Source of the DNA: Pegea sp. RAD2-039
Lineage: Eukaryota; Chordata; Thaliacea; Salpida; Salpidae
Length of the DNA stretch: 64,000 nt
Assembly (NCBI GenBank): GCA_034620365.1
Contig: JAQGEQ010000334.1
Coordinates: 124,001-188,000 of the forward strand
Reading direction: 5' to 3'
The position numbers and the translations under genes are program-made. The notes beneath the pieces were generated by a model that had not been told where the DNA came from, searched no databases, and was given only the letters and a program-made list of their open reading frames with translations. Below are positions 1-64,000 of this stretch, piece by piece. Position 1 is the first letter of the stretch, and each line of letters starts with the position of its first letter.

Positions 1-1455
1 ACTTAGCTCTTATAGAATCGATCTTAGGCTGTTTAACTGCTTACTTTTGTAGTGACAATCGTATTACTGACAGATAAATTATATCTTGTTAATAAGTTAC
101 CAGTCTACGATATACTCTAGCAAAGTTCAATAAAGTTTCTAAAACGAATTAGTAATATTATTACAATTGTCATAAACATCTTCTGTCATTAATGATTTGT
201 TTGCGTCAAGTTTCTTCTTGATTTTAACATAATAAAGCAATACGAAGCAAAAGTTTATTTTTTAGATCAGTTTCCATGATGAACAAGTCATTTTCTCATT
301 CAAAAAGCTATAAAAGTCAAAACAAACAACAGTTATAGCTGTCAGTTTTCAACTATGTATTTTTTTCCGTTAGAAAAAATCTTTTATTTAAGAAATTCAA
401 CAAAAAATTTTAGAATCTTTATAATTTACCTTCAAAGTTTACTTTTGTTGATAAATTAGCAAATACGCTAGTTGTTGCAAACTTATTCGATTTTAGCTAG
501 TAAAAATATAATTTATAAATTGATAACAACTTTAATTGGAAAATTGTTTAAAAAATTAATTTCATTATTTTTTGTTCTATGCTTTTCTGTATCTAATTTT
601 AACTCTATTCAGACAAGGAGTATTTGATTACATTGGTTTCTCTTTAACACATACATACTTTTCAATTATTAATATTGCAAACAGACATTAATTTTCAATT
701 ATATAGTCTACTAAAAAGGTTATTTTTCTTTATTTTTAAGCATAAATCGAAAACTACAATTCAAAATCTAAAAAATAATATGGTTGTATATTAATACATA
801 ATTATCATTATTATTATTTATGTTATTACTAATACTATTTTTAATTTATTTTTAATATTTTGTTTTTCTTTCATGAAGTTTACTTCTATTTGTTTTAACC
901 CACAAACATGAGATTGAAACAGCTTTACTTATAACGCTGGATTTTTCAACTGACATCTTCTATCATTCGATTCTTGAAAATGGAATTTGGAAACTGATAA
1001 CTTCAGTTGAATTAAAGTTAGCTTCTTATTGTTGATTACCAAATATCAATAAATTCGCTTTCTACTGAGATTAGCTAGATTTTTTTATTTTGAGATTTTT
1101 ATATTTGGAATACTAATTTCAGCATTTTACATAAAAGTCACTTTAAATTCAATAAAAAAATTGCATTAGAAAACAAACAAGACAGTTTTCCAAATTTAGT
1201 TGCTTTAAAAACAAGTTTAGTTTATAGAAAAGTTTTTTAAAATTTCACAACTAAAACATAAAATTAGTAGGACTGTAGTAAGAAAGATAAGGAATTTCTG
1301 AATAATAATATCTTGCAAAAATTGCATAATTTCAAAATTAAAAGATTTACCAAAATTTGCAGTAAGTAAACATTTAAAACTTTAACTCACAAACATTAGA
1401 TTAAAATGCAATAATATATAAGATGAGTATAACAAAATTTTACCTGATATTCGGA
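1..1455. repeat. Inverted-arm block L1, pairs with 61074-62529
   Basis: Reading forward from base 1 matches the reverse complement reading down from 62529, with only scattered substitutions by eye. The match stops at about 1455, inside a promoter-hairpin module. No protein gene seen. Direct copies of its first 0.5-1.1 kb recur at 29.58-30.85 kb and 34.94-35.52 kb. Confidence 0.85.
901..1008 (+). promoter_or_regulatory. Promoter-hairpin module, AACTGA class
   Basis: Element CACAAACATGAGATTGAAAC at 901-920, TTATAA at about 929, then hairpin AACTGA-TAACT-TCAGTT at 992-1008. The mirror copy at 61522-61629 has one stem substitution. Confidence 0.5.
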
Positions 1456-1456
1456 T
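1388..1456 (+). promoter_or_regulatory. Promoter-hairpin module, truncated
   Basis: Element CACAAACATTAGATTAAAA at 1388-1406, TATATAA at 1415-1421, and a first small hairpin ACCTGA-TAT-TCGGAT beginning 27 bases after the TATA start (1442). The GTTGAA hairpin is missing because the left arm is deleted from 1456. Confidence 0.5.
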
Positions 1457-1896
1457 TTTTAATGAAGAGTATTTAATACATAATTTTAACAATTTAATTT
1501 TAATCAAAAAAATTCTTTAAACTCTTACGCAATTTCATTATATAATTATTTAAACAATGAAATGCTTTACCGGCTGCATCCCTTGCGATGTAAGATGAGC
1601 TCACCCCATAAGTTAACTCGTTAAAAGTTAATTTACTACTTAACATCTAGTTTCCATTCTAATAAGACAAGAAGTTTTTCATTACATTACTTCTATTTAA
1701 CCAAAACATCCTTTTTTAACTTTAGTATTGCAAACATTTATTTTTTTACATACAAACTTTACTAAAGATGTTTTTTTTTTATTTTTTAAATATAAATCAA
1801 AAACTTTAATTCAATATTAAATAATAATACAAATAAATATCGAGAATTATTTTTAAATCTTTATTTTCATGACTTATACTTTTTTCTGTTTCAACC

Positions 1897-2007
1897 CAAA
1901 AATTTGAGACTAAAACAGCCTTATTTATAAGGTTAGCTCTACCAGTTGACAGGTCGATTTAAGTTTCCCATCTTCCGTTTCAAATTTTGAGACTGATATA
2001 TTCAGTT
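1897..2007 (+). promoter_or_regulatory. Promoter-hairpin module, AACTGA class
   Basis: Element CAAAAATTTGAGACTAAAAC, TTTATAA at 1924-1930, hairpin GACTGA-TATAT-TCAGTT at 1991-2007 (outer G-T pair). Confidence 0.5.
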
Positions 2008-2629: not shown

Positions 2630-2752
2630 TTAGAAACCTTAGATTGAAATGCAATAATATATAACCTGAGTATAACGAAGTTTTTCCTGATATTTGGGTG
2701 TTATTGTTTATGTTATTGTTTTTTATTATTTTGAGGTTGAATAAGTTTCAAC
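2630..2752 (+). promoter_or_regulatory. Promoter-hairpin module, GTTGAA class
   Basis: Decayed element (TAGAAACCTTAGATTGAAA), TATATAA at 2658-2664, small hairpin CCTGA-TAT-TTGGG at 2686-2698, then GTTGAA-TAAGT-TTCAAC at 2736-2752. Confidence 0.5.
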
Positions 2753-2786
2753 TTATAATTCACATAAAATTATTGTTGTTCAGCAT

Positions 2787-2893
2787 CACAAACTTAGGAT
2801 TGAAACCACTTCATACATAAGATTTAAGATTTAATGTAATCTGCTTATCAACGTCAGAAAGATTAGTTTTTTAAACCCGTTAATTGTTACGAG
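2787..2893 (+). promoter_or_regulatory. Promoter-hairpin module, CCCGT class
   Basis: Element CACAAACTTAGGATTGAAAC, weak TATA (CATACATAAG) at 2812, imperfect hairpin CCCGT...ACGAG at 2876-2893. Mirrored at 58273-58379. Confidence 0.45.
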
Positions 2894-3156
2894 TGATTTT
2901 ATGGTAAATAATCTTTTTGCTAGTGAAGCATTATAAAAGGTCTGTTATTGAAATTAAATTTCTATCTCTGTTTAAATGATTATCACTTATTTAAATAATT
3001 TGCTGTTGATTTTTTGAAGTGCTGCAACTTAGTTGCATCTTGTACTTATTATTTTACTTTTCTATTTATTCTTACTGAAGCTGAACAGTTTTCAATTATA
3101 ATTTAAATACTATTGTATAAAGTTAGTCAAGCAGAACTGTTAAACAAAATACCAAA

Positions 3157-4428: not shown

Positions 4429-4548
4429 CACAAAATTGAGACTAAAACAGGATTACTTATAAGGTTGGGTTTTTTTTTTTCTTTCAAGCTGTAGCTAAAA
4501 TCTACTAATTTAAATTCTCCTTAAATTTGGAAACTGATATTTTCAGTT
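4429..4548 (+). promoter_or_regulatory. Promoter-hairpin module, AACTGA class
   Basis: Element CACAAAATTGAGACTAAAAC, ACTTATAAGG, hairpin AACTGA-TATTT-TCAGTT at 4532-4548. Confidence 0.5.
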
Positions 4549-5605: not shown

Positions 5606-5735
5606 GTATGAATTTCATTCAACTTCAAATTAACCCAAGATATAGGCCAACATTCGTCTGTGAATTTTGTTCTAATTCTTGTGTACTCAGCATATAATTA
5701 TATAAAAGCTTTGTATAATCTACTGTTTGTAGTGT
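5606..5735 (-). promoter_or_regulatory. Promoter-hairpin module, GTTGAA class, broken hairpin
   Basis: Minus-strand element ACAAACAGTAGATTATAC with TATATAA near 5700. The distal hairpin has an extra base in one stem strand, and the mirror copy at 55442-55570 has the same lesion. The element lies only about 100 bp back-to-back from the next plus-strand module. Confidence 0.45.
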
Positions 5736-5837: not shown

Positions 5838-5945
5838 CACAAATATGAAATTAAAACAGGCTTATTTATAAGGTTATCTTTTAGTTGACAGACAATTTAT
5901 ACTCTGTATTGTGACGGGCCTATTTGGAAACTGATATATTCAGTT
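5838..5945 (+). promoter_or_regulatory. Promoter-hairpin module, AACTGA class
   Basis: Element CACAAATATGAAATTAAAAC, TTTATAA at 5865-5871. A first hairpin ACAGA/TCTGT (5888-5907) starts 23 bases after the TATA start, followed by AACTGA-TATAT-TCAGTT at 5929-5945 and a TTTT run near 5977. Confidence 0.55.
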
Positions 5946-6465: not shown

Positions 6466-6574
6466 GTTGAAATTTATTCAACTCCAAATTAGTTTAAATA
6501 TATTCCTTCATTTGAAATGGAGCTTTGTTTCAGTTTATTATAATATAAAAGCTTCTTATATTCTAGTGTTTGTG
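6466..6574 (-). promoter_or_regulatory. Promoter-hairpin module, GTTGAA class
   Basis: Minus-strand element CACAAACACTAGAATATAAG, TATA-like box near 6540-6549, perfect stem GTTGAA/TTCAAC with a five-base loop at 6466-6482. Mirrored at 54593-54701. Confidence 0.5.
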
Positions 6575-7271: not shown

Positions 7272-7382
7272 CGCAAATATGAGACTAAAACAGGTTTATA
7301 TATAAGATTATGTTTCTCAAGTTGATATAATCTGATTTCTTTCTGTGTTAACGAATTCATTTAGAAACTGATACATTCAGTT
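7272..7382 (+). promoter_or_regulatory. Promoter-hairpin module, AACTGA class
   Basis: Element CGCAAATATGAGACTAAAAC enclosed by the 8-bp inverted repeat CTGTTTTA/TAAAACAG (7261-7293), TATATATAAG, hairpin AACTGA-TACAT-TCAGTT at 7366-7382, then a TTTTT run. Confidence 0.55.
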
Positions 7383-8925: not shown

Positions 8926-9048
8926 GTTGAAATTCATTCAACTTCAAATTAATGTGATGTTTAAACCCTCAACTGAATCGGAGCGCTGTACCTAATCTCC
9001 TTCACTCAGTATATAGTTATATAAAAGCTTTTACAATCTACTGTTTCT
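8926..9048 (-). promoter_or_regulatory. Promoter-hairpin module, GTTGAA class
   Basis: Minus-strand element CAGAAACAGTAGATTGTAAA, TATATAA near 9018, hairpin GTTGAA-loop-TTCAAC at 8926-8942. Between them, ACTGA/TCAGT with inner GGAG/CTCC can also pair. Confidence 0.5.
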
Positions 9049-10640
9049 GGTGTAACCTAAAAAAAACCTTGAAATTATTATAAATTATTTTTTCAGAGCT
9101 CAAAGCCCTTGGCTAATTGCAACTTTTTTTTTACTTACTAAATTTTCTAAAATATAAAATTTACTGATTAAGTGTGTATTTTAAATTAAAAAAGAACTAT
9201 TGAAGAAATTTGAAGAAGTTTACATGTACTACCTGTGGAAAATTATTTGAATTGCTTTAATTACAATAAAATATCAGCAAATAAATTAAAGGCTGATTTG
9301 ATTTTCTATGCAAATGCTCGGTAATAGCAAAACCAAGGGATGTTTATTTTTGGTTTAGTTTAATTTTTCTTGTTTCTTAAAAATCAAACAAGTTATTTGT
9401 AAATCAGAATAGTCGCTAGATGACGCTGTTTGTACTTGATTTTAACTTTTTTTTTTATTCTAAAAAGCCATTTTAAAACAAGAATATTTTTTTAAGTACG
9501 ATTAAATATTAAACTGTGCTACTTAGCTCTAAAAGAATAGATTTTAGAATGTTTAACTGCCAAACTTTGTGCTAGCAATTGTATTAATGACAAATATCAC
9601 CTTGTTAATATATTACAAGTCAAAGATACATTTAAACAAAGTTCAATAAATTATTAAAATAAATATTATAAAATAAATATTAATATTATTACACTTTTCA
9701 AAAACAATTTCTGTTATAAACAATTTATATATGCATCAAAATTGAATGCACATTCTAGTTTGTGTTGTTCTTTTTATTTTGCAACCCGTCCTTTTTTACG
9801 GTGAACTGTAAGATAAATATTGCTAATCCTAGTGAAGCTAAATGGAAACTTTTTTGTATAAATAGTAAGTTTTATATTATTTAACAAATTATGTTTCTAG
9901 TTTAAAAAATATATCTTTAAATCCTTAGTTAATTTCATTTTATAGTTATTTAAACAATGAAATGCTATACTAGCTGCATCCAATGCGATCTATAATGGGC
10001 TCACCCTTTGAATTATCTCGTTAAAATAGAATTTACTACTTCTCATCTAATTTCAAATCTATTAAGAAAAAAAGTTTTTCATTACATTTACTTCTCTTTT
10101 ACAAATACATTCTTTTGAAACTTTAGTATTGCAAATTAATATTTTTTTACATACACAAATGCTAAAGATTGTGGTTTCTTTGTTTTTTTAATATAATCAA
10201 AAACTTTAATTCAATATTAAAAAATTATACAAATTATAATTTTGAAGGGTTTTTAGAAAGTACATTCCTGCTCATTTTTATAAAATTTACTTTTTATAAA
10301 ATCGTAAAAGTATTGTGTATTAAAAGATATAGTTCATAAAATTTCATGATTTAATTTTAGAAAGTATAATTTTGAAATTATATTATATATATTGTCCTTG
10401 GAAAGATTACTTATATAATTTAAAAATAATTTTTGTTGAGAACCTCAAACTATTGAGACATGACACAATGATTGAAAGTAAAGCTATTGTGTTTTAAAAT
10501 AGAAAGTTTATAAAAATTTTTTATTTAAATTTAGAAAGTGTAATTTTGAAATTAAATTACATGCATTGTCCTTAGAAAATTTCCATTTATAATTTAAAAG
10601 TTATTTTTGTTGACAACCACAATCTATACAGATGATTGTT

Positions 10641-13262
10641 TGATATAGATAATAAATTTTTAAAATAACATTTAATACAAAAATTGAAACTAACTAAAAT
10701 GAAGAAATGAATAGGAAGCTAAAGTTTTAATGTTTAGATCAGTTTTGTATGATAGACACAGATCATTTTCTCATTCAAGAAGTTATATAAGCCAAAACCG
10801 ACAACAATTTTATTTTTCGAATTTCAACTAAATATTTTTCCTGTTAGAAAAAGTTTTTTGATTTATTTAACCCGAAAATAAATTTTTAGAAGCTTTATAA
10901 TTTACTTTGAAAGTTGATTTTTGTTAGAAATTTAGCAAATGCGCTATATGTTAAAAAAGTATTTGATTTTCGCTAGTAAAAAATGTAATCTGGAAATTGA
11001 AGACAAGTTGAATAGGAAATTTGTTGACCAAATTATATTCATTTAATATTTTTTGTGCTATGATTATCTTTATAGAAAACTAACCATTAAGTTTTATTCT
11101 AAAAAGTTGCTAAGCTCAATCAGATAGAACTTATATTTTCATTGTCAATAAAAGCAAAAAATGAATTGATACTCTGTTATAAGACGGCTGCTGTTTTATA
11201 ATTTTACGTTAAAAAGTCTTAATAAATGTTTGTTATTGATTAATACATGTCAATTTTTTAGAAGAAAAGTATATTTATTTAATTATCAAACTAAAGTAAT
11301 TTCAAAGCAAATAAAATATAAAAAATTCTAGTCTCCATTTAAAACCTCTAACAACTATGATAACAGATTTTATCTTTAATAAAATCCTTAAATCCTGGAA
11401 CAAACTTAATAATGGCGTTTTTGTTGAGTTTCTGCTGAGGAATAAAGTTTTTTACTGTAAACAATAAAAAAGAATTTTTTGACATGCTTATTATTTTGTT
11501 TAAAACATCTCAAAATTGTTTGAAATAAAAGTACTGTTTGCAAAAAAACGAAAACTAGATTACTAAATGATTAAAGGGAAATTCCAGATACTTTTCTAAA
11601 ATTTTACAAATTTTACTTTTGTATATTATGAATAACTTTCTTTAAGTATTAATATTTGTCGCAGCATTTCTTTATTTTGCTAAAATATCTTAGTTGAAAA
11701 AAAATATCTCAAATATACTTTGTTGAAAAATATATAATTGAAATTGTTAACCTCATAAATATTGTACTGAAATAAGTCAACATAACAATTTTAAACAAAC
11801 AAGATGTTTGTCTTTGGCTTAGTTTAATTTATTTTATTTCTATAATATCAAACAATTTTTTTGTAACTCACAACATCCGCCAGCTGTCGCTGTTGGTATT
11901 TTAATCTATATTCTTTTGTATTCAATTTCATATTCTAAAAAATCAAAATATAAACAAACTAAAATTGCTGCTTTACAGTTGCTACTTACTTTTGTACTGA
12001 CAATTGTATTACTGACAAATGAATTAAGTCTTGTTAACAAATTACAATGCTAAATTTGCTAATATAAATCATGTATAAGAAAAAAATTAAAGATATACAT
12101 TGCCAATCCTATTGAAGCTAGATGGAAATGTTTTTTTATAAATAGTAAGTATTACATAAATTTAACAAATTAAAATTACTTTATAAAAAGAAATCTTTAA
12201 ACTCCTACGCAATTTCATTTTGTAGTTATTTAAACAATGAAATGCTTTACCAGCTGTATCCCTTGCAAATTAATATGGGCTGACCCCACTCAATTAACTC
12301 GTTAAATTTTAAGTTACTACTTCACATCTGATATCAACTCTATTAAGACAACAAGTTTTTCATTATATATACTTCTCTATAACAAATACATTCTTTTCTA
12401 ACTTTAGTTTTGCAAACAAATATTTCTTACATAAAAAATTTACTAAAGATTGTGATTTCTTTGTTTTTTAAATATAAATCAAAAACATTTATTCAATATT
12501 AAAAAATAGTGCAAATAAATAAAAACTTTATTTTTAAATGTTTATTTTAAAGAAGTTTACTTTTTTCTGTTTTAACCCACAAATTTGAGACTAAAACAGG
12601 TTTATATATAAGATTATGTTTCTCGTGTTGATATAACGTAAACCAATTCTGTATAAACGAAATCATTTAGAAACTGATGCATTCAGTTGAATTTGAAAGA
12701 ATAATTTTCCTACAGATTGCTTGTTTTGATGAATTTCAATTATTACTGAAGTCGCTTTCTATAGCCTGAAATTTATCAATTGACATCAAAGCTACCAATT
12801 CTTGTTTCATTATTATATAATAATATTTATTATTATAATCTAACGAGATTAGTAATTGGTGAAAGTGAAGGAATTGTCTTTTTGTACTTCTTGTCTGGAG
12901 CTTGTCTTTCTGAATTGTCTTTCTCTTGCTAGTTGTTTTTGTTTATTTTTTCAACTTACATAAAACTTAAAGAAGAAAAAAATGCTGTTCTTGAATTTTT
13001 AAAAGAATTTTAAGAAAATGCTTTTGATACCACGTTCGAAAAACAATTTTTGATCTTTTTGCTTTTCTTTAAAATATAAAAAATCAGATTTCATAAAGTT
13101 ATTAATTTATTAAAATAGCGATTACTTAACTAACTGAAATAAATAGTTCTATCACAGATAAATAATACAAGTTACAATAATTCTACAATTTAAACAAATT
13201 TTTCAATATGATTATTCAATATGATTGTTCAACAAAATTAAAAAAGTATCAAGTAAAAGATA
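10641..13262 (+). repeat. 2.7-kb block, copy 1 of 3
   Basis: Direct copy of 20760-23483 and inverted copy of about 49740-52450. In the first 270 bases copies 1 and 2 differ at only about five positions by eye, which makes this younger than most repeats in the window. Non-coding, with one plus-strand promoter-hairpin module. Confidence 0.8.
12578..12688 (+). promoter_or_regulatory. Promoter-hairpin module, AACTGA class
   Basis: Element CACAAATTTGAGACTAAAAC inside a perfect CTGTTTTA/TAAAACAG inverted repeat (12567-12599), TATATATAAG at 12603, hairpin AACTGA-TGCAT-TCAGTT at 12672-12688, TTTT at 12705. Confidence 0.55.
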
Positions 13263-13743: not shown

Positions 13744-13852
13744 GTTGAAATTTATTCAACTCCAAATTAGAAAAAAGTCAAGTATTCATAGGTCAATCGC
13801 CTAAGTTTCAGATTATTATTATATAAAACCTTCTTATAATCTAGTGTTTGTG
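13744..13852 (-). promoter_or_regulatory. Promoter-hairpin module, GTTGAA class
   Basis: Minus-strand element CACAAACACTAGATTATAAG, TATATAATAA near 13818-13828, perfect hairpin at 13744-13760. Mirrored at 49152-49260. Confidence 0.5.
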
Positions 13853-15243: not shown

Positions 15244-15850
15244 ACAATTTTTTTTTAAGGGAACCAAAAAAGGCTTAGAAACTATAAAGTTTACTTTTGT
15301 ACATAATCTAATAAGTGCGTTGTAAACTAATTAAATTTTCGCCAGTAAAAATTATAATCCAGAAATTGAAAATCAAGTTGCGCTGGAAAATATTTAAAAT
15401 TAAAACTATAGATTTGGAACCATATTTCTACTTGGTAATATTGATTAAAATTTGTTGAAACTTATTCAACTTCAAATTAATAAAAGATTGCCTGATATAA
15501 CCAACCGTACATATGTGTTACGTTTCGAGTATACTATTATTTGAAAGAGTTTTATAGTCTAGTGTTTGTGGTGTAGACTTGTAAAAAAATTGAATTTGTT
15601 AATAATCATTTCTCAGAGATTAATACCCTTGGCTAGTTTCAGCTTTATTTTAATTTTTCAACTTTTTAAAACTATAATTTTTGCAGAGTAAGTGTACATT
15701 TTAATTTTTAAAACGTTCATTACAGAAGTTAGCAAAGTTTTACAACTATTGCACGTGGAAGAGTATTTTAATCGTTTTAGCATAACAGAACATTGCAGCA
15801 AATAATTTAAGGGCTGATTTGATCTTCTATACAATTGCTCGCTAATAACA
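15244..15850. repeat. Inverted-arm block L4, pairs with about 48045-48310
   Basis: The last recognisable portion of the long inverted repeat. The right arm lacks about 15456-15805, which on the left includes most of a minus-strand module. Confidence 0.65.
15454..15570 (-). promoter_or_regulatory. Promoter-hairpin module, GTTGAA class
   Basis: Minus-strand element CACAAACACTAGACTATAAA with a weak TATA; perfect stem with loop ACTTA (plus reading) at 15454-15470. Confidence 0.45.
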
Positions 15851-17083: not shown

Positions 17084-17196
17084 GTTGAAACTTATTCAAC
17101 TTCAAAATATTAGTAAACACATGGAGAACTTCAAATTCATCTCTTTCACCGTTATACTCATGTTATATATTATTGCATTCTTATCTAATGTTTGTG
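17084..17196 (-). promoter_or_regulatory. Promoter-hairpin module, GTTGAA class
   Basis: Minus-strand element CACAAACATTAGATAAGAAT, TATATAAC near 17162-17170, perfect hairpin at 17084-17100. Confidence 0.5.
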
Positions 17197-17344
17197 GGTT
17201 GCAATTTTAAAATCCTTACTTTTTACAGATAAGCTACTTATAATCTAAAACAGACGCTACTAAGTAATTATTTTTTCAGTTCTTAATCTCTATTTACTAT
17301 TAAAAAATCGATTTTCTTTTTAAAAACATCCTATAGAGAGTCAA

Positions 17345-17369
17345 AGCTTCATATAATCTAGTGTTTGTG
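17345..17369 (-). promoter_or_regulatory. Orphan module element, no hairpin
   Basis: Minus-strand element CACAAACACTAGATTATATG is intact but is cut off by a repeat junction near 17340, so the rest of the module is missing. Confidence 0.45.
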
Positions 17370-19047: not shown

Positions 19048-19169
19048 CACAAACCTGAGATTAAAATGCAATAATACATAAGATGAGTATAACAAAGCTT
19101 TACCTGATATTTAGGTGTTATTGTTTACATTACCATTGATTATTATTTTGAGGTTGAACAAGTTTCAAG
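19048..19169 (+). promoter_or_regulatory. Promoter-hairpin module, GTTGAA class
   Basis: Element CACAAACCTGAGATTAAAAT, TACATAAG at about 19075, first hairpin ACCTGA-TAT-TTAGGT, second GTTGAA-CAAGT-TTCAAG at 19153-19169 (outermost pair lost). Confidence 0.5.
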
Positions 19170-20759: not shown

Positions 20760-23483
20760 TGATATAGATAATAAATTTTTAAAATAACATTTAATACAAA
20801 AATTGAAACTAACTAAAATGAAGAAATGAATAGGAAGCTAAAGTTTTAATGTTTAGATCAGTTTTGTATGATAGACACAGATCATTTTCTCATTCAAGAA
20901 ATTATATAAGCCAAAACCGACAACAATTTTATTTTTTGAATTTCAACTAAATATTTTTCTTGTTAGAAAAAGTTTTTGCTTATTTAACACGAAAATAAAT
21001 TTTTAGAAGCTTTATAATTTACTTTGAAAGTTGATTTTTGTTAAAAATTTAGCAAATGCGCTATATGTTAAAAAATTATTTGATTTTTGCTAGTAAAAAA
21101 TGTAATCTGGAAATTGAAGACAAGTTGAATAGGAAATTTGTTGACCAAATTATATTCATTTAATATTTTTTGTGCTATGATTATCTTTGTAGAAAACTAA
21201 CCATTAAGTTTTATTCTAAAAAGTTGCTAAGCTCAATCAGATAGAACTTATATTTTCATTGTCAATTAGAGCAAAAAAGGAATTGATACTCTGTTATAAG
21301 ACGGCTGCTGTTTTAAAATTTTACGTTAAAAAGTCTTAATAAATGTTTGTTATTGATTAATACATGTCAATTTTTTAGAAGAAAAGTATATTTATTTAAT
21401 TATCAAACTAAAGTAATTTCAAAGCAAATAAAATATAAAAAATTCTAGTCTCCATTTAAAACCTCTAACAACTATGATAACAGATTTTATCTTTAATAAA
21501 ATCCTTAAATCCTGGAACAAACTTAATAATGGCGTTTTTGTTGAATTTCTGCTAAGGAATAAAGTTTTTTACTGTAAACAATAAAAAAGAATTTTTTGAC
21601 ATGCTTATTATTTTGTTTAAAACATCTCAAAATTGTTTGAAATAAAAGTACTGTTTGCAAAAAAACGAAAACTAGATAAATAAATGATTAAAGGGAAATT
21701 CCAGATACTTTTCTAAAATTTATTCTACAATGTTCAAATATTAGTTATAAATTAAATTTACTTTTGTATATTATGAATAACTTTCTTTAAGTATTAATAT
21801 TTGTTGCAGCATTTCTTTATTTTGCTAAAATATTTCAGTTGAAAAAAAATATCTCAAATATACATTGTTGAAAAATATATAATTGAAATTGTTAACCTCA
21901 TAAATATTGTACTGAAATAAGTCAACATAACAATTTTAAACAAACAAGATGTTTGTCTTTGGCTTAGTTTAATTTATTTTATTTCTATAATATCAAACAA
22001 TTTATTTGTAACTCACAACATCCGCCAGCTGTCGCTGTTGGTATTTTAATTTATATTCTTTTGTATTCAATTTCATATTCTAAAAAATCAAAATATAAAC
22101 AAACTAAAATTGCTGCTTTACAGTTGCTACTTACTTTTGTACTGACAATTGTATTACTGACAAATGAATTAAGTCTTGTTAACAAATTACAATGCTAAAT
22201 TTGCTAACATAAATCATGTATAAAAAAAAAATTAAAGATAAACATTGCCAATCCTATTGAAGCTAGATGGAAATGTTTTTTTATAAATAGTAAGTATTAC
22301 ATAAATTAAACAAATTAAAATTACTTTATAAAAAGAAATCTTTAAACTCTTACGCAATTTCATTTTGTAGTTATATAAACAATGAAATGCTTTACCAGCT
22401 GTATCCCTTGCAAATTAATATGGGCTGACCCCACTCAATTAACTCGTTAAATTTTAAGTTACTACTTCACATCTGATTTCAACTCTATTAAGACAACAAG
22501 TTGTTCATTATATATACTTCTCTATAACAAATACATTCTTTTCTAACTTTAGTTTTGCAAACAAATATTTCTTACATAAAAAAATTACTAAAGATTGTGA
22601 TTTCTTTGTTTTTTAAATATAAATCAAAAACATTTATTCAATATTAAAAAATAGTACAAATAAATAAAAACTTTATTTTTAAATGTTTATTTTTAAGAAG
22701 TTTACTTTTTTCTGTCTTAACCCACAAATTTGAGACTAAAACAGGTTTATATATAAGATTATGTTTCTCGTGTTGATATAATGTAAACCAATTCTGTATA
22801 AACGAATTCATTTAGAAACTGATGCATTCAATTGAATTTAAAAGAATAATTTTCCTACAGATTGTTTGTTTTGATGAATTTCAATTATTACTGAAGTCGC
22901 TTTCTATGGCCTGAAATTTATCAATTGACATCAAAGCTACCAATTCTTGTTTCATTAATTTGTAAAAGATGATAATTTCAGTTGAATTAAAAGCTATCTA
23001 TTCCACAGGTTATTGTTTTGTTGATAATTAATTATCAATAAAGTCGCTTCTAATGAGATTAGTAATTGGTGAAAGTGAAGGAATTGTCTTTTTGTACTTG
23101 TTGTCTGGAGCTTGTCTTTCTGAATTGTCTTTCTCTTGCTAGTTGTTTTTGTTTTTTTTTTCAACTTACATATAACTTAAAGAAGAAAAAAATGCTATTC
23201 TCGAATTTTTAAAAGAATTGTAAGAAAATGCTTTTGAAACCACGTTCAAAAACAATTTTTGATTATGTCACTTTTCTTTAAATTATAAAAAATCAGATTT
23301 CATAAAGTTATTAATTTATTAAAACAGTGATTACTTAACTAACTGAAATAAATACTTCTATCACAGATAAATAATACAAGTTACAATAATTCTAAAATTT
23401 AAACAAGTTTTTTAATATGATTATTCTATATGATTGTTCAACAAAATTAAAAAAGTATCAAGTAAAAGATAATATTATTATAT
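20760..23483 (+). repeat. 2.7-kb block, copy 2 of 3
   Basis: Direct copy of 10641-13262, about 98% identical in the stretches compared by eye. It keeps a segment around 22950-23040 that copy 1 has lost. It begins at a TGATATAGATAATAAAT junction after unrelated sequence. Confidence 0.8.
22723..22833 (+). promoter_or_regulatory. Promoter-hairpin module, AACTGA class
   Basis: Direct duplicate of the module at 12578. Same element and TATATATAAG; hairpin AACTGA-TGCAT-TCAATT at 22817-22833 has one stem substitution. Confidence 0.5.
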
Positions 23484-24613: not shown

Positions 24614-24731
24614 AACTGAATAATTCAGTTTTCAAATTAAACAACAATACTTAAACAAATATCAAAAATCGCCTTAGTTTTCATAGGAAACTAAAATTGT
24701 TATATTAACTTTTTTCAATTTTGTGTTTGTG
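24614..24731 (-). promoter_or_regulatory. Promoter-hairpin module, AACTGA class, minus strand
   Basis: Element CACAAACACAAAATTGAAAA on the minus strand, AATATAAC, and a seven-base perfect stem AACTGAA-TAA-TTCAGTT at 24614-24630. It lies in the lower-copy part of the repeat field. Confidence 0.45.
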
Positions 24732-25888: not shown

Positions 25889-26001
25889 GTTGAAACTTAT
25901 TCAAATTCAAAATATTAGTAAACATTTGGAAAACTTCAAAACTATCTTTTGCACCGCTATAATCATGTTATATCTTATTGCATTCTAATTAAATGTTTGT
26001 G
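25889..26001 (-). promoter_or_regulatory. Promoter-hairpin module, GTTGAA class
   Basis: Minus-strand element CACAAACATTTAATTAGAAT, TATAAC, hairpin GTTGAA-ACTTA-TTCAAA at 25889-25905 (outermost pair lost). Confidence 0.45.
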
Positions 26002-39642: not shown

Positions 39643-39645
39643 TTG

Positions 39646-43386: not shown

Positions 43387-43389
43387 CTA

Positions 43390-49151: not shown

Positions 49152-49260
49152 CACAAACACTAGATTATAAGAAGGTTTTATATAATAACAATCTGAAACT
49201 AAGGTCATTTTCCTATGAATACTTTACTTTTTTCTAATTTGGAGTTGAATAAATTTCAAC
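49152..49260 (+). promoter_or_regulatory. Promoter-hairpin module, GTTGAA class (right arm)
   Basis: Element CACAAACACTAGATTATAAG, TATATAA, perfect GTTGAA-TAAAT-TTCAAC at 49244-49260. Mirror of 13744-13852. Confidence 0.5.
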
Positions 49261-49739: not shown

Positions 49740-52450
49740 TTATCTTTTACTTGATACTTTTTTAATTTTGTTGAACAATCATATTGAATAATCATATTGA
49801 AAAATTTGTTCAAATTTTAGAATTATTGTAACTTGTATTATTTATCTGTGATAGAACTATTTATTTCAGTTAGTTAAGTAATCGCTGTTTTAATGAATTA
49901 ATAAATTTATGAAATCTGATTTTTTATCATTTAAAGAAAAGTGACATAATCAAAAATTGTTTTTGAACGTGGTTTCAAAGGCATTTTCTTACAATTCTTT
50001 TAAAAATTCAAGAACAGCATTTTTTTCTTCTTTAAGTTTTATGTAAGTTGAAAAAATAAACAAGAACAACTAGCAAGAGAAAGACAATTCAGAAAGACAA
50101 GCTCCAGACAACAAGTGCAAAAAGACAATTCCTTCACTTTCACCAATTACTAATCTCGTTAGAAGCGACTTTATTGATAATTAATTATCAACAAAACAAT
50201 AACCTGTGGAATAGATAGCTTTTAATTGAACTGAAATTATCATCTTTCACAAAATAATCAAACAAGAATTGGTAGCTTTGATGTCAATTGATAAATTTCA
50301 GACCATAGAAAGCGACTTCAGTAATAATTGAAATTCATCAATACAAACAATCTATAGGAAAATTATTCTTTTAAATTCAACTGAATGCGTCAGTTTCTAA
50401 ATGAATTCGTTTATACAGAATAGGTTTACATTATATCAACACGAGAAACATAATCTTATATATAAACCTGTTTTAGTATCAAATTTGTGGGTTAAAACAG
50501 AAAAAAGTAAACTTCTTAAAAATAAACATTTAAAAATAAAGTTTTTATTTATTTGTACTAATTTTTAATATTGAATAAATGTTTTCGATTTATATTTAAA
50601 AAAAAAAGAAATCACAATCTTTAGTAAATTTTTTATGTAAGAAATATTTGTTTGCAAAACTAAAGTTAGAAAAGAATGTATTTGTTATAGAGAAGTATAT
50701 ATAATGAAAAACTTGTTGTCTTAATAGAGTTGAAATCAGATGTGAAGTAGTAACTTAAAATTTAACGAGTTAATTGAGTGGGGTCAGCCCATATTAATTT
50801 GCAAGGGATACAGCTGGTAAAGCATTTCATTGTTTATATAACTACAAAATGAAATTGCGTAAGAGTTTAAAGATTTCTTTTTATAAAGTAATTTTAATTT
50901 GTTAAATTTATGTAATACTTACTATTTATAAAAAAACATTTCCATCTAGCTTCAATAGGATTGGCAATGTTTATCTTTAATTTTTTTCTTATACATGATT
51001 TATGTTAGCAAATTTAGCATTGTAATTTGTTAACAAGACTTAATTCATTTGTCAGTAATACAATTGTCAGTACAAAAGTAAGTAGCAACTGTAAAGCAGC
51101 AACTTTAGTTTGTTTATATTTTGATTTTTTAGAATATGAAATTGAATACAAAAGAGTATAAATTAAAATACCAACAGCGACAGATGGCGGATGTTGTGAA
51201 TTACAAATAAATTGGTTGATATTATAGAAATAAAATAAATTAAACTAAGCCAAAGACAAACATCTTGTTTGTTTAAAATTGTTATGTTGACTTATTTCAG
51301 TACAATATTTATGAGGTTAACAATTTCAATTATATATTTTTCAACAATGTATATTCGAGATATTTTCTTTCAACTAAAATATTTTAGCAAAATAAAGAAA
51401 TGCTGCAACAAATATTAATACTTAAAGAAAGTTATTCATAATATACAAAAGTAAATTTAATTTATAACTAATATTTGAACATTGTAGAACAAATTTTAGA
51501 AAAGTATCTGGAATTTCCCTTTAATCATTTAGTTATCTAGTTTTCATTTTTTTGCAAACAGTACTTTTATTTCAAAAAATTTTGAGATGTTTTAAACAAA
51601 ATAATAAGCATGTCAAAAAATTATTTTTTATTGTTTACAGTAAAAAACTTTATTCCTTAGCAGAAATTCAACAAAAAGCCATTATTAAGTTTGTTCCAGG
51701 ATTTAAGGATTTTATTAAAGATAAAATATTTTATCATAGATGTTAGAGGTTTTAAATGGAGATTAGAATTTTTTATATTTTATTTGCTTTGAAATTACTT
51801 TAGTTTGATAATTAAATAAATATACTTTTCTTCTAAAAAATTGACATGTATTAATCAATAACAAACATTTATTAAGACTTTTTAACGTAAAATTTTAAAA
51901 CAGCAGCTGTCTTATAACAGAGTATCAATTTCTTTTTTGCTTTTATTGACAATGAAAATATAAGTTCTATCTGATTGAGCTTAGCAACTTTTTAGAGTAA
52001 AACTTAATGGTTAGTTTTCTACACAGATAATCATAGCACAAAAAAAATTAAATGAATATAATTTGGTCAACAAATTTCCTATTCAACTTGTCTTCAATTT
52101 CCAGATTACAATTTTTACTAGCAAAAATCAAATAATTTTTTAACATATAGCGCATTTGCTAAATATTTAACAAAAATCAACTTTCAAAGTAAATTATAAA
52201 GCTTCTAAAAATTTATTTTCGGGTTAAATAAACAAAAACTTTTTCTAACAGGAAAAATATTTAGTTGAAATTCAAAAAATAAAATTGTTGTCGGTTTTGG
52301 CTTATATAACTTCTTGAATGAGAAAATGATCTTTGTCTATCATACAAAACTGATCTAAACATTAAAACTTTAGCTTCCTATTCATTTCTTCATTTTAGTT
52401 AGTTTCAATTTTTGTATTAAATGTTATTTTAAAAATTTATTATCTATATC
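49740..52450 (-). repeat. 2.7-kb block, copy 3 of 3 (right arm)
   Basis: Inverted copy of 10641-13262 and 20760-23483. A 64-codon frame at 51552-51746 falls in it, but equivalent positions in the other copies are closed, so it is not treated as a gene. Confidence 0.8.
50379..50489 (-). promoter_or_regulatory. Promoter-hairpin module, AACTGA class (right arm)
   Basis: Mirror of 12578-12688. The stem is unchanged but the loop differs by one base (ATGCG on the plus strand), and the CTGTTTTA/TAAAACAG flanking repeat is perfect. Confidence 0.5.
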
Positions 52451-53785: not shown

Positions 53786-53895
53786 AACTGAATGTATCAG
53801 TTTCTAAATGAATTCGTTAACACAGAAAGAAATCAGATTATATCACTTGAGAAACATAATCTTATATATAAACCTGTTTTAGTCTCATATTTGTG
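53786..53895 (-). promoter_or_regulatory. Promoter-hairpin module, AACTGA class (right arm)
   Basis: Mirror of 7272-7382; AACTGA-ATGTA-TCAGTT at 53786-53802. Confidence 0.5.
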
Positions 53896-54592: not shown

Positions 54593-54701
54593 CACAAACA
54601 CTAGAATATAAGAAGCTTTTATATAATAATAAACTGAAACAAAGCTCCATTTCAAATGAAGGAATATATTTAAACTAATTTGGAGTTGAATAAATTTCAA
54701 C
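54593..54701 (+). promoter_or_regulatory. Promoter-hairpin module, GTTGAA class (right arm)
   Basis: Element CACAAACACTAGAATATAAG, TATATAATAA, GTTGAA-TAAAT-TTCAAC at 54685-54701. Mirror of 6466-6574. Confidence 0.5.
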
Positions 54702-55233: not shown

Positions 55234-55336
55234 AACTGAATATATCAGTTTCCTAATAGGCCTGTCACAGTATAAATTGTCTGTCAACTGGAAACGATAA
55301 CCTAATAAATAAGTCTGTTTTAGTTTCATATTTGTG
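55234..55336 (-). promoter_or_regulatory. Promoter-hairpin module, AACTGA class (right arm)
   Basis: Mirror of 5838-5945; AACTGA-ATATA-TCAGTT at 55234-55250. Confidence 0.5.
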
Positions 55337-55441: not shown

Positions 55442-55570
55442 CTACAAACAGTAGATTATACAAAGCTTTTATATAATTATATGCTGAGTACACAAGAATT
55501 AGAACAAAATTCACAGACGAATGTTGGCCTATATCTCGGGTTAATTTGAAGTTGAATGAAATTCATACTC
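55442..55570 (+). promoter_or_regulatory. Promoter-hairpin module, broken hairpin (right arm)
   Basis: Mirror of 5606-5735 with the same imperfect stem; intact element and TATATAA. Confidence 0.4.
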
Positions 55571-56626: not shown

Positions 56627-56745
56627 AACTGAAAATACCAGTTTCCAAATTTTAGGAGAATTTAAATTAGTAGATTTTAGCTACAGCTTGAAAGAAAAAA
56701 AAAACCCAACCTTATAATTAATCCTGTTTTAGTCTCAAATTTGTG
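56627..56745 (-). promoter_or_regulatory. Promoter-hairpin module, AACTGA class (right arm)
   Basis: Mirror of 4429-4548; one stem base has changed (CCAGTT), leaving a G-U pair if read from the element's strand. Confidence 0.45.
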
Positions 56746-58010: not shown

Positions 58011-58272
58011 TTGGTATTTTGTTTAACAGTTCTGCTTGACTAACTTTATACAAAAGTATTTAAATTATAATTGAAAACTGTTCAGCTTCAGTAAGAATGT
58101 ATAGAAAAGTAAAATAATAAGTACAAGATGCAACTAAGTTGCAGCACTTCAAAAAATCAACAGCAAATTATTTAAATAAGTGATAATCATTTAAACAGAG
58201 ATAGAAATTTAATTTCAATAACAGACCTTTTATAATGCTTCACTAGCAAAAAGATTATTTACCATAAAATCA

Positions 58273-58379
58273 CTCGTAACAATTAACGGGTTTAAAAAAC
58301 TAATCTTTCTGACGTTGATAAGCAGATTGCATTAAATATTAAATCTTATGTATGAAGTGGTTTCAATCCTAAGTTTGTG
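58273..58379 (-). promoter_or_regulatory. Promoter-hairpin module, CCCGT class (right arm)
   Basis: Mirror of 2787-2893 with the same imperfect hairpin at 58273-58290. Confidence 0.4.
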
Positions 58380-58413
58380 ATGCTGAACAACAATAATTTT
58401 ATATAAATTATAA

Positions 58414-58538
58414 GTTGAAACTTATTCAACCTCAAAATAATAAAAAACAATAACATGAACAATAACACCCAAATATCAGGTAAAACTTCGTTATACTCAG
58501 GTTATATATTATTGCATTTTAATCTAAGGTTTCTAAGT
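58414..58538 (-). promoter_or_regulatory. Promoter-hairpin module, GTTGAA class (right arm)
   Basis: Mirror of 2630-2752; decayed element, perfect hairpin at 58414-58430, first hairpin ACCTGA-TAT-TTGGGT. Confidence 0.5.
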
Positions 58539-59165: not shown

Positions 59166-59277
59166 AACTGAATATATCAGTCTCAAAATTTGAAACGGAA
59201 GATGGGAAACTTAAATCGACCTGTCAACTGGTAGAGCTAACCTTATAAATAAGGCTGTTTTAGTCTCAAATTTTTGG
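59166..59277 (-). promoter_or_regulatory. Promoter-hairpin module, AACTGA class (right arm)
   Basis: Mirror of 1897-2007; stem ACTGA/TCAGT at 59166-59182. Confidence 0.45.
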
Positions 59278-59719: not shown

Positions 59720-61073
59720 TTATTTTTGCTTCACTAGGATTAGCGATATTTATCATAAAGTCACCCTGAAAAGATGACAAATTCCAAAATGACATGAATA
59801 TGAGCAACGAGAACGTACGTTGAATGCGTTGATGTTAAAAGCTTTTAAGTCAAGTAGTCTCAATCTTTGTCTCATGTCTCAATAGATTGTGGTTCTCAAC
59901 AAAAATAATTTTTAAATTTTATAAGCAATTTTTCTAAGAACAATATATATAATATAATTTCAAAAATATACTTTCTAAAATCAAATTTATAAAACTTTAT
60001 AAATTTTCTGTTTTAAAACACAATACGATTACGATTTTAGTTTGTCTCTAATATAACTAGAAAGCAAGTTACAAACTATATGAAGAAACTGACATTTATT
60101 GTTTTTTTTATAAATGAAAAAAATAAGGTGAATCTACTAAAGTTAAATTAACTTTAATAAAAAATAACAACATTAAAAACAACATAAAAATTTACAGCTA
60201 TCCCAAGTAATAGGAGTAAAAATTAGTTTTCTTAGTTTCACTATTGTTTAAATAATGTTATTTCAAAGTATTATTATCTTTAACAAACAACAAACAGTAG
60301 ATTAACATAAATGAAATTGCTCTGCTACAATTTCTTTTAAATGTTTATTTCGAAAATTTTCTAACAGAAGAATGAAGAATATTAAGTAAATGTTGCAGTA
60401 CTTTAGAACAACAACAGCAAATAAATTTAAATTATTCATAATCATCTAAACTGAGATAGAAATTTCATTTCAATACAATGTGTTTTATAATGCTTCACTT
60501 GCAATAATGTTATTAACCGAAAAATTACCCGTAAGAAAAAACGGGCTCCAATTATAAAAACTTTTTAGATGGTTGCATCTACGCAAATTGAGTTGAATCT
60601 CAAACGTTATATATAAAGTGGTCTCAATCTTATGTTTGTGGTGCTGAAAAAAAATAGCTTAAAAATTGTAATGACTAATTTTTAAATGAAAATAATAAAA
60701 ATCATTTCAATAATGACACTGATAATGACATTTTTTATATATTTCTATGTATTGGATGTTTATATTGTTAAAATTGTATAATTTGTTAACTTAATTTAGT
60801 AAATTAATATTCTAATAAGTTTACAATTTCAGTAAATTATGTTGAAAATATTTTCCATTTTTGCAGTTCAGAAAATATATTCAATAAAAAATTTAGAATA
60901 AATAAAAATAATATAATATTTTAATAATATAGATCCTTAACAACCTGCAGTGTTTTTTAGCTTGATATTTTCGCTTATGTTTCTACTTTCATTAGAAAAA
61001 CTATTTATATAATTTATAAGTTGAAACTTGTTCAACCTCAAAATAATAATTAATGATAACGTTAATAATAACA
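59720..61073. repeat. Right-arm-only block (about 1.35 kb)
   Basis: The left arm skips this block at 1455/1456. It contains a complete CCCGT/ACGGG module (60528-60640) and the hairpin half of the module that is truncated on the left at 1388-1455. The simplest reading is a deletion on the left. Confidence 0.75.
60528..60640 (-). promoter_or_regulatory. Promoter-hairpin module, CCCGT class, perfect stem
   Basis: Minus-strand element CACAAACATAAGATTGAGAC, TATATATAAC, then CCCGT/ACGGG with an eight-base loop at 60528-60545. Present only in the right-arm-specific block. Confidence 0.5.
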
Positions 61074-61140
61074 CCCGAATATCAGGTAAAATTTTGTTAT
61101 ACTCATCTTATATATTATTGCATTTAATCTAAGGTTTGTG
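61020..61140 (-). promoter_or_regulatory. Promoter-hairpin module, GTTGAA class, complete
   Basis: Minus-strand element CACAAACCTTAGATTAAATG, TATATAAG, first hairpin ACCTGA-TAT-TCGGGT, second GTTGAA-CAAGT-TTCAAC at 61020-61036, followed by TTTTT. It is the full form of the module truncated at 1388. Confidence 0.55.
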
Positions 61141-62529
61141 AGTTAAAGTTTTAAAATGTTTACTTACTGCAAATTTTGGTAAATCTTTTAATTTTGAAAT
61201 TATGCAATTTTTGCAATATATTATTATTCAGAAATTCCTTATCTTTCTTACTACAGTCCTACTAATTTTATGTTTTAGTTGTGAAATTTTAAAAAACTTT
61301 TTTATAAACTAAACTTGTTATTAATGCAACTAAATTTGGAAAACTGTCTTGTTTGTTTTCAAATGCAACTTTTTTATTGAATTTAAAGTGACTTTTATGT
61401 AAAATGCTGAAATTAGTATTCCAAATATAAAGAAGCTCTAAATAAAAAAATCTAGCTAATCTCAGTAGATAGCAAATTTGTTGATATTTGGTAACCAACA
61501 ATAAGAAGCTAACTTTAATTCAACTAAAGTTATCAGTTTCCAAATTCCATTTTCAAAAATCGAGTGATAGAAGATATCTGCTGAAAAATCCAGCCTTATA
61601 AGTAATGCTGTTTCAATCTCACGTTTGTGGGTTAAAACAAATAGAAGTAAACTTCATGAAAGAAAAACAAAATATTAAAAATAAATTAATAATATTATTA
61701 GTAATAACATAAACAATAATAACAATAATTATGTATTAATATGCATCCATATTATTTTTTAGATTTTGAATTGTAGTTTTCGATTTATACTTAAAAATAA
61801 AGAAAATTAACCTTTTTAGTAGATTATATAATTGAAAATTAATATCTGTTTGCAATATTAATAATTGAAAAGAATGTATGTGTTAAAAAGAAACCAATGT
61901 AATCAAATACTCCTTGTCTCAATAGAGTTAAAATTAGATACAGAAAAGTATAGAGCAAACAATAATGAAATTAATTTTTTTAACCATTTTCTAATTCAAG
62001 TTATTATCAATCTTTAGATTATATTTTTACTAGCTAAAATCCAGTAAGTTTGCAACAACTAGCGTATTTGCTAATTTATCAACAAAAGTAAACTTTGAAG
62101 GTAAATTATAAAGATTCTAAAACTTTTTGTTGAATTTCTTAAACAAAAATTTTTTTCTAACGGAATAAAAATACATAGTTGAAAACTGACAGCTATAACT
62201 GTTGTTTGTTTTGACTTTTATAGCTTTTTGAATGAGAAAATGATTTGTTCATCATGGAAACTGATCTAAAAGATAAACTTTTGCTTTGTATTGATTTATT
62301 ATGTTTAAATCAAGAACAAACTTGACGAACACAAATCATTAATGACAGAAGTTGTTCATGACAATTGTAATAGTATTTTTAACTTGTTTTAGAAACTTTA
62401 TTAAATTTATTTAAGTATATTTTTGACATGTAATTCATTAATAAGATTTAATTTACTTGTCAATAATAAGATTGTCAGTACAAAAGTAAGGGGTTAAAAA
62501 GTCTAAAATTAATTCTATAAGAGCTAAGT
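61074..62529. repeat. Inverted-arm block R1, pairs with 1-1455
   Basis: Reverse complement of the window start; also matches 29.58-30.85 kb in inverted orientation. No gene. Confidence 0.85.
61522..61629 (-). promoter_or_regulatory. Promoter-hairpin module, AACTGA class (right arm)
   Basis: Mirror of 901-1008; on the element strand the stem reads AACTGA/TTAGTT, with a G-U pair. Confidence 0.45.
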
Positions 62530-64000
62530 GCCACAGTTTGGTATCGAATCGTACTAAAGAAAAAATTTCTGGTCTTAAAATGGTTTATCAGAAAGAGAAA
62601 TCGAATAAAAAGTTATATATATTTCACCAACTGCGACAGCTAGCGGATGTTGTGATTTACAATTAACTTGTTTGATTTTTAAGAAACTAAAAAAGATTAA
62701 ACTAAACGAAAAACAAACATCTCGCTTTGTTTTGCTATTACCGATCGTTTGTATAGAAAATCAAATCAGTTTTAAATTATTTGCTGATATTTTACGTTAA
62801 ATTAATGCGATTAAAATAATTTTCCACACGTAGTAGATGTAACCTTTTGCCAATTTCTTCAATAGTTCATTTTTAATTTAAAATACACACTTAGTCAGCA
62901 AAATTTATATTTTAGAAGTTTTAGTGAGTAAACAAAAGTTGAAACTAGCCAAGGGCTCTGAGCTCTGAAAAATTAATTTATAACGATTTCAAGGTTTTAC
63001 CAGTTTACACCACAAACAGTAGAATTTAAGAAGCTTGTATATAGCTATTGACTGAGTGAAGGAGATTAGGTACAACTATCGATCTCAGTTGATAATCGTA
63101 TGATCACTTTATTTTGAAGTTGAATGTATTTCAACAATCTTTAATCAATGTGACCAAGCGGTTTATCTACTACCTTTTAACTTGCATATGGTTTCCTGGT
63201 ATAATTTTCAAACGCAAGAAATACGTTGTTATACTTCTTAAAAGAAATTACACCATACTTGACTTTTAAAAGCTTAGATTAACTCTCTATAGGTCTTTTT
63301 TAAACCGAAAATCGATTTTGTATTAGTAAATATCGATTAAGAAATGAAAAAAAAATTAACTTATTAGCGTTTGTTTTGGATTATAAGTAGATTCCTTAGG
63401 TGTTTTGAAATTTTTATTATTAGTTAATATATTATTGCACCACTATTATATTATTTAATATAATATTATTTAATAATAATACCACTGTTTATTAATAATA
63501 GTACATACAAATCTAAGATAACAGAAGCTGTTTCTGACAAGTGTAATAATATTATTAACTTATTATTAAAAATTTTTAATCTTATACAAACAGTCAGAAC
63601 AAAAGTAGGTAAATGAATAGTCTAAATTTAATTTTATCATTGCTAAGCGCAACAATTTGTTATTAAACTGTTGTGAGAAAATATCCATCATGTAAATCAA
63701 TAACAATTTATTAATAAAAGAAATAAAAAAATCCAAAAATAACAATGTTTTAGTGAACTATCAACAGCAACAGCTCGCAACTGTTAATGCTTAAGAATGT
63801 TTGCTTGTATTTTGAGAAACAAAATATATTAAATTCAAAAATACTAAAACCAACTCTGTTCGTTTTGCTTTTAACAAACATGTGTAAGGAAAATTATTCA
63901 TCATAAGCCCTTAAACTAATTGCTGCTATGTTTTGTTAAATTAAAACGATTAAAATAGTTTTAGAATCACAGTAGGTGTAAAATTTTGCTAATTTCTTGA
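62530..64000. repeat. Right-end unit, inverted match of 28.0-29.58 kb
   Basis: The inverted relation continues with 28-29.58 kb; the matching left-arm part would lie before base 1. It holds a 25-bp GC-rich box near 62627-62652 and a plus-strand module at 63010. Confidence 0.75.
63010..63135 (+). promoter_or_regulatory. Promoter-hairpin module, GTTGAA class (right end)
   Basis: Element CACAAACAGTAGAATTTAAG, TATATAGC, perfect GTTGAA-TGTAT-TTCAAC at 63119-63135. Mirror of 28978-29103. Confidence 0.5.

Follow-up and report, generated by a model that had tools for sequence, protein, structure and literature searches.

A large array of putative Sm-class RNA genes with small nuclear RNA promoters and a rapidly diverging 5' domain in a salp

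U7 small nuclear RNA (snRNA; RF00066) is about 60 nucleotides (nt) long and combines a free 5' domain that pairs with its target, an Sm-type site and a single 3' hairpin under an snRNA promoter. Nematode SmY RNAs are described as short, Sm-bound RNAs with 12 genes in C. elegans and an Sm site flanked by stem-loops (PMC11229312). For the Class I RNAs of dictyostelids, the account available gives a median length of about 60 nt, many genes, and a promoter element (DUSE) about 60 nt upstream; the ends of these RNAs are constant, another part is highly variable, and a stem is kept by compensatory changes (PMC7919456). Several spliced leaders (SLs) are reported to be in use in Hydra and in a chaetognath, and the Hydra SL RNAs are given as 80 or 107 nt long with the sites AAUUUUGA or AAUUUUCG (SL-A: GAUUUUCGG) (PMC7986045). 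Here we describe an array of modules in the salp Pegea sp. RAD2-039. The window, i.e. the whole stretch of 64,000 bases analyzed, comprises bases 124001-188000 of contig C134 (234,909 bases) in a genome of 105.7 Mb and 387 contigs. It is populated by copies of a module in which a proximal sequence element (PSE) and a TATA-like box are followed, at a fixed distance, by a hairpin preceded by the Sm-site-like sequence ATTT(T)(G/A)(G/A)A. Judging from the DNA alone, we consider it probable that this array represents Sm-class RNA genes of about 50-70 nt, belonging to a huge family that evolves fast and has a layout like that of U7 or SL RNA.

The consensus of the 19-base element, with at most 3 mismatches allowed, occurred 37 times in the window, compared with 2.31 expected (standard deviation 1.35, largest 6, 100 shuffles). 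A 28-position matrix trained on the window copies gave 47 matches above score 9 and 0 in the reversed window, confirming the more than 40 copies of a PSE-TATA-hairpin module that a first-pass annotation had reported; 45 copies exceeded score 15, 22 on the plus strand and 23 on the minus strand. In the 228 kb of the contig that were scanned, there were 147 strong PSEs (score above 15), against 0 in the reversed contig, and these were again found on both strands as reported (77 plus, 70 minus). The TATA-like box begins 23-29 bases past the PSE start in 108 of the 147 copies and 34-37 bases past it in 5, and a simple expression found no such box in 34. The annotation had put this box at 26-30 bases. 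A hairpin of at least 6 bp with a preceding ATTT-type site was present at +75 to +150 from the PSE start in 106 of the 147 contig copies and in 34 of the 45 window copies, compared with 498 of 2940 shifted places (17%) and 13 of 147 on the reverse strand. Among the 106 hairpin-bearing modules of the contig, 103 have a stem start at 84-108, in agreement with the roughly 86-109 bases of the annotation. On the other hand, its statement that the units otherwise differ did not hold for many of them, which are recent copies of one another: the region is heavily self-duplicated (e.g. 53.2-59.7 kb versus 8.0-1.5 kb, inverted, at 96.8% identity). Because of these recent duplicates there are fewer independent modules, with 49 of 103 being non-redundant by the variable part.

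The module element is firmly identified as the snRNA PSE of this species, because the U1, U2, U6, U4, U5 and RNase MRP genes carry the same PSE-TATA arrangement. Covariance searches of the genome gave 19 places for U1 (18 above the cut-off), 15 for U6 (13 above) and 19 for U2 (all 19 above), and 8 U1, 10 U6 and 8 U2 loci were then read by eye. In all 26, the PSE CACAAACA(C/T), or a variant differing by 1-2 bases, stands at a fixed upstream place, from -55 to -62, together with a TATA box. The proposal of an snRNA-type promoter is therefore supported: the real snRNA genes carry the module-type PSE rather than a different one. The U1 PSE reads C(A/G)CAAA(C/T)A..AAACTTAAA in 7 of 8 loci and CACAAACACTAAAAATTTT in L006; its first C lies 55 bases before the RNA, and TTATAAATA or a similar sequence follows 24-27 bases past it. 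The U2 PSE, C(A/G)CAAACACTAA(G/A)CTTTCC, lies 56 bases before the RNA and is followed 26-27 bases on by an ATATA-type box. The U6 PSE, (C/A)ACAAACACTAAAC(T/G)TTTT or close to it, lies about 62 bases before the RNA, with ATATATA or similar about 31 bases past it. This allows U1/U2-type and U6-type snRNA promoters to be compared within one species; both bear a TATA box, and the spacing differs. Since U1 and U2 also have TATA boxes, the TATA box alone is not diagnostic of RNA polymerase III (Pol III) here. The PSE-TATA spacing of the modules is like that of U1/U2 and not U6, which favors RNA polymerase II (Pol II), so that of the two polymerases named in the annotation Pol II is the better candidate. 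At the U1 PSE place, the window-trained matrix scored 9.4-24.1 in 8 of 8 loci; at the U6 place it scored 6.8-14.1 in 5 of 10 loci, with nothing above 4 in the other 5, and at the U2 place 7.6 and 8.7 in 2 of 8 loci. The module promoters and those of U1/U2/U6 are the same element in different sub-types. The GC content is 26-34% in 23 of the 26 U1/U2/U6 loci and 21-24% in the other three, and 19-25% in the array stretches. Elsewhere in the genome (C32, C39, C49, C81, C114), small clusters hold neighboring U2 and U6 genes in both orientations.

The generic pattern CACAAACAYNAARCTT-N5-17-TATAWA matched the genome in 52 rows (including 6 double readings of one place) and the control in 0. Of the 17 stretches fetched from such places, three are U4, U5 and RNase MRP, all above their cut-offs. 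Nine (on C102, C107, C188, C211 and C224) read by eye as genes without an assigned identity that carry a PSE, a TATA box, a variable part, an Sm site and a hairpin, and the remaining five received no assignment, one of them having a sub-threshold snoU25. The module itself also recurs across the genome. A strict class A promoter pattern had 35 matches (control 0), all on C92 (21), C134 (9), C283 (4) and C96 (1); those on C92 (649,741 bases) span 66 to 640 kb. The 3' end GTTGA..TTTCAAC had 258 matches and AAC(T/C)G..GTTGAA had 105, each with 0 in the control; as strict matches to two types, counted without an individual promoter check, these are lower bounds for 3' ends. The contigs among the 3'-end matches listed include C23, C31, C60, C64, C89, C92, C93, C96, C102 and C134. 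The class A promoter string was found 0 times in an IMG/VR scan, and no published description of such an array was found in the open-licence PMC literature. As a separate observation made by eye, C107 and C211 (L045-L047) hold a further array of similar units with a AATTTTTGA or AAATTTTGA site and a 5' stem-loop. As its units are more uniform, this array is a stronger candidate for encoding a genuine SL RNA or a housekeeping Sm RNA.

What do the modules have in common besides the promoter? Classes A-F were assigned in this analysis from the promoter and hairpin of aligned copies. Identity was computed in 10-base bins for diverged members of class A (9), class B (7) and class C (6); it was 0.67-0.89 over positions 0 to 40 from the PSE start, 0.56-0.73 over 40 to 90 and 0.70-0.93 over the Sm-hairpin stretch. 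The flanks ranged from about 0.53 to 0.76, with higher values immediately before the PSE (up to 0.89) and, for class C, in the 130 bases upstream of it (up to 0.79). In these three classes there are thus two conserved islands (0 to 40 and 90 to 125) separated by a stretch near background, and conservation returns to background about 125-150 bases past the PSE start. The site preceding the hairpin is ATTT(G/A/T)(G/A)A in most of classes A and B and ATTTTGA in class C; its longest form, ATTTTTGGA, occurs in one class D member (C134:208367) and in the C102 array. Other arrays have canonical sites in the fetched stretches read by eye (AATTTTTGGA in C102, AATTTTTGA in C107), and the canonical AUUUUUGR type was seen only in one class D member and in the C102, C107 and C211 stretches. 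We read the ATTT-type site as a candidate Sm site, and the predicted RNAs are likely to be of the Sm class.

Hairpin pairing is kept while the stem sequence changes between classes. The stems are of three quite different kinds (AACTGA/TCAGTT, GTTGAA/TTCAAC and AACCGC/GCGGTT), with a fourth in class D, read by eye. In 45 chosen 3' ends, 260 of 270 cells (96%) were paired, compared with 11-54% when partners were slid, although this fraction is biased upward, since only 3' ends with a class-type 5' arm could match the expression used to find them. The 45 were hand-picked from 75 unique strings; those dropped did not keep the register, nearly duplicated another string or came from places of stretch L044 that are not modules. 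Of the stretches, 53 of 181 gave no match to the expression. Pairs were counted in an ungapped register, because MAFFT on the 45 ends shifted one class by a column. Taken from 55 bases past the PSE start to the end of the hairpin, the predicted RNA has a median length of 57 nt (range 48-72, 103 modules), of which about 35-45 nt form the 5' domain, with a GC content of 30% compared with 24% in the flanks. At the gathering score Rfam gave no match in the window and none in stretch L044, and a tRNA scan of the window called none.

To compare rates among duplicated modules, those of C134 were paired by flank similarity, each being used once per divergence class. In the 27 pairs with a flank divergence of 0.15-0.25, the 5' domain had 0.291 substitutions per site, compared with 0.151 in the upstream and 0.203 in the downstream flank; the PSE had 0.108, the TATA zone 0.126 and the Sm-hairpin 0.107. 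The 5' domain was faster than the flank in 24 of these 27 pairs and the Sm-hairpin slower in 23. After a composition correction, made since the 5' domain is GC-richer and GC sites diverge faster here, the ratio to flank was 1.55 for the 5' domain and 0.59 for the Sm-hairpin. Over the 29 pairs at 0.10-0.25, the 5' domain averaged the 80th percentile of equal-length flank windows and was above the middle in 26. We read this pattern as probable constraint on the signals for production and packaging, beside a 5' domain that is diversifying or, at the minimum, changing very fast. The main alternative is relaxed constraint together with homogenized flanks.

The modules in the window are as follows.

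901..1008 (+): class A module with PSE, TATA box, variable 5' domain, Sm-like site and hairpin
1388..1460 (+), end approximate: truncated class C copy, promoter and 5' domain present, Sm site and hairpin missing
1897..2007 (+): class A module, AAATTTTGA and hairpin
2631..2752 (+): class C module
2787..2894 (+): class D module, degenerate CCCGT..ACGAG hairpin
4429..4548 (+): class A module
5607..5731 (-): class B module, damaged hairpin
5838..5945 (+): class A module
6466..6574 (-): class B module
7272..7382 (+): class A module
8926..9049 (-): class B module with GATTAG/GTACA, an SL-like donor candidate
12578..12688 (+): class A module
13744..13852 (-): class B module
15454..15570 (-): class B module
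17084..17196 (-): class C module
17320..17369 (-): class B promoter, downstream part foreign, no convincing Sm site or hairpin by eye
19048..19169 (+): class C module
22723..22833 (+): class A module
24614..24731 (-): class E module, AACTGAAT..ATTCAGTT hairpin
25889..26001 (-): class C module
26657..26774 (+): class A module
28978..29102 (-): class B module
30467..30578 (+): class A module
31459..31569 (+): class A module
34557..34681 (-): class B module
36404..36517 (+): class C module
49152..49260 (+): class B module
50379..50489 (-): class A module
53786..53895 (-): class A module
54593..54701 (+): class B module
55234..55336 (-): class A module
55443..55567 (+): class B module, damaged hairpin
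56627..56745 (-): class A module
58272..58379 (-): class D module
58414..58535 (-): class C module
59166..59276 (-): class A module
60527..60640 (-): class D module, CCCG..CGGG hairpin, then a T run
61020..61140 (-): class C module
61522..61629 (-): class A module
63011..63135 (+): class B module
11754 (+), 21899 (+), 47708 (-) and 51313 (-): class F, PSE-like start with no well-placed TATA box or Sm-hairpin

Seven of the 45 window copies lack the full module, namely the four of class F and those at 1388 (+), 17369 (-) and 60289 (+). In class F, about 145 bases after the PSE-like start are conserved as a block, and the class possibly represents another type of repeat or RNA.

If Sm-class RNA genes are indeed what the array contains, the PSE would be recognized by SNAPc and the TATA box, about 27 bases farther along at the U1/U2 spacing, by TBP. 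Pol II would then start about 55 bases past the PSE start and produce an RNA of about 50-70 nt. The 5' part of this RNA would be a free domain of about 35-45 nt, in which no structure was detected; the single-stranded AUUU(U)(G/A)(G/A)A site after it would load the Sm ring, and the 6-bp hairpin would end the RNA at its 3' side. Repeated inverted and direct segmental duplication would have multiplied the genes into arrays of several hundred kilobases, with selection holding the promoter and the Sm-hairpin while the 5' domain diversifies. The 5' domain would then presumably be the working part, serving either in recognition or as a donated sequence: its fast change beside constant ends would point to a recognition role or a leader repertoire. 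The candidates are a guide-like ribonucleoprotein (RNP) repertoire, a diversified leader repertoire and a largely inactive family. If transcribed, the modules would constitute a very large animal snRNA-like gene family of an unusual kind, in which the promoter and Sm-hairpin stay constant and the presumed active part outpaces the neighboring DNA. A bolder version, which we regard as rather unlikely, is that the animal's genome encodes several hundred Sm-RNPs as a "variable-guide snRNP" system, in which the promoter and the 3' Sm-hairpin stay constant while a 5' guide domain undergoes positive diversification. Such RNPs might act on many targets in the manner of U7, e.g. against transposons or viruses, or might tune splicing.

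Several observations weigh against an Sm-class gene family. Classes A and B have a short site, ATTTGGA or ATTTAGA, which is weaker than AUUUUUGG. Folding of +38 to +135, including the hairpin, was no more stable than that of shuffles (z -2.44 to 1.17), and Rfam at E up to 5 gave only a sub-threshold virus packaging signal in the window (E 3.5). Measured by equal-length flank windows, the Sm-hairpin was not significantly slow (mean 0.58, P about 0.08), and such p-values are optimistic because the pairs come from one contig and share ancestry. In younger pairs the ratio of the 5' domain was mixed, with 1.84 at flank divergence below 0.03, 0.80 at 0.03-0.08 and 1.49 at 0.08-0.15, and that of the Sm-hairpin was 1.22, 0.48 and 0.78 in the same bins. 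As for the promoter, the window-trained matrix misses 5 of 10 U6 and 6 of 8 U2 promoters, and none of the 147 modules is preceded by the TGACGTCA element, which in 7 of 8 U1 loci (L001-L005, L007, L008) starts some 16 bases ahead of the PSE. Lastly, the PSE-like starts of class F come without an Sm-hairpin.

Could the 5' domain be a leader exon ending at a GU donor, and the array a diversified repertoire of SL RNA genes? SL RNAs share the layout of exon, GU, Sm site and stem-loops and form multi-copy families, and GATTAG/GTACA is present in some members of class B. Of the 49 non-redundant 5' domains, 46 contain GT, compared with 40.1 expected (standard deviation 2.4), an excess that may only reflect their higher GC content (30% versus 24%). 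Three of the 49 domains have no GT, stretch L049 has none from +55 to the Sm site, and by eye the donor position differs between subfamilies. Donor-like sites amount to 4.1% in 5' domains versus 4.9% in flanks, and when 16 SL queries, among them two forms of the same Hydra SL, were compared with the window by alignment, 0 exceeded their own maximum in 10 shuffles. An SL role is possible but unsupported, because donor quality is not enriched and no tested SL sequence fits; we hold it to be doubtful. The polymerase is a further point of choice, as vertebrate promoters of the U6 type consist of a PSE plus a TATA box and runs of four or five T follow class D hairpins, so the modules might be Pol III (U6-type) genes. 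Yet U1 and U2 of this species also bear TATA boxes, and it is their spacing, not that of U6, that the modules match. The internal TTTT in 60 of 103 predicted RNA bodies disfavors Pol III, and a T run lies within 12 bases past the hairpin in only 12 of 103. We therefore judge Pol III genes quite improbable.

The remaining alternatives deny most modules a function as genes. The family could be derived from SL RNA or snRNA and consist mostly of pseudogenes spread by segmental duplication, with few active copies. This would suit a window that is repeat-rich, AT-rich (about 24% GC) and poor in open frames, the broken members at 5731 (-), 55443 (+), 1388 (+) and 17369 (-), and the youngest pairs, whose Sm-hairpin is not slower than the flank (1.22). 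However, the promoter and Sm-hairpin are conserved among copies with near-background flanks, in older pairs the rate of the Sm-hairpin is 0.59 times that expected after composition correction, hairpin pairing is kept, and decay does not predict that the 5' domain outpaces the flanks. On this evidence we consider a family of mostly dead copies unlikely. A more radical possibility is that the modules are not RNA genes at all but DNA-level repeats, such as transposon ends or recombination sites, with a chance PSE-like motif and an inverted repeat; the region is indeed a mosaic of repeats with fragments of long interspersed nuclear elements (LINEs). This appears very improbable, given that the motif equals the PSE of U1, U2, U6, U4, U5 and MRP at a similar distance to the TATA box, that conservation is at background about 125-150 bases past the PSE start, and that the order of PSE, TATA, ATTT site and hairpin is fixed, with only 13 of 147 showing the site and hairpin in reverse reading.

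Other features lie within and near the array. Cullin-3 exons are present at 41272-43386 (-); one exon matches Cullin-3 in PDB (E 4e-9), and the others were recognized by eye. A second Cullin-3-like copy, also read by eye, lies outside the window at C134:46200-47250 and suggests that the gene was co-duplicated with the array. A LINE-type reverse transcriptase fragment (RVT_1, E 8.5e-16) is found at 39154-39561 (+), and an open frame resembling the C-terminal end of a LINE is duplicated at 3346-3798 (-) and 57376-57828 (+); its copy at 3349-3798 had no Pfam match. By eye, we also noted a C2H2 zinc-finger-like open frame at 38127-38384 (+) and a degenerate tRNA-Gly(GCC)-like sequence at 8022-8100 (+), where ARAGORN calls no tRNA.

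Among known systems, the modules resemble U7 snRNA in being short, with a free 5' domain, an Sm-like site, a single 3' hairpin and an snRNA promoter. RF00066 itself had no match in the window, and among the best candidates scored in the genome none was above the cut-off, the best of 16 weak matches having E 0.40; 12 of 14 control genomes also give below-cut-off matches. To our knowledge, U7 is not a hypervariable family of hundreds. The modules share with animal SL RNA genes an Sm-like site, the hairpin and the organization in multi-copy families, but differ from them in that no shared donor was seen, there is no conserved leader, and the 16 SL queries were unmatched. For an accessory family of Sm RNAs, the nearest parallel, as far as it is described in the source available, is SmY. 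SmY RNAs have two stem-loops of which the first is strongly conserved, whereas the first part of the modules is hypervariable, with no structure detected and no Rfam match; a search for nematode cuticle collagen, made without a positive control, found none. The dictyostelid Class I RNAs have a stem joining the 5' and 3' ends, an 11-nt motif and tens of genes, and no Sm site is mentioned in the part of that account available (PMC7919456). In the modules, by contrast, the 3' hairpin is internal, an Sm-like site is present and the gene-like copies number in the hundreds; in the alignments of classes A-D, nothing constant marks the 5' end where the predicted RNA would begin. Nevertheless, as far as that account goes, the Class I RNAs are the nearest parallel for constant ends combined with a variable middle under a PSE-like promoter.

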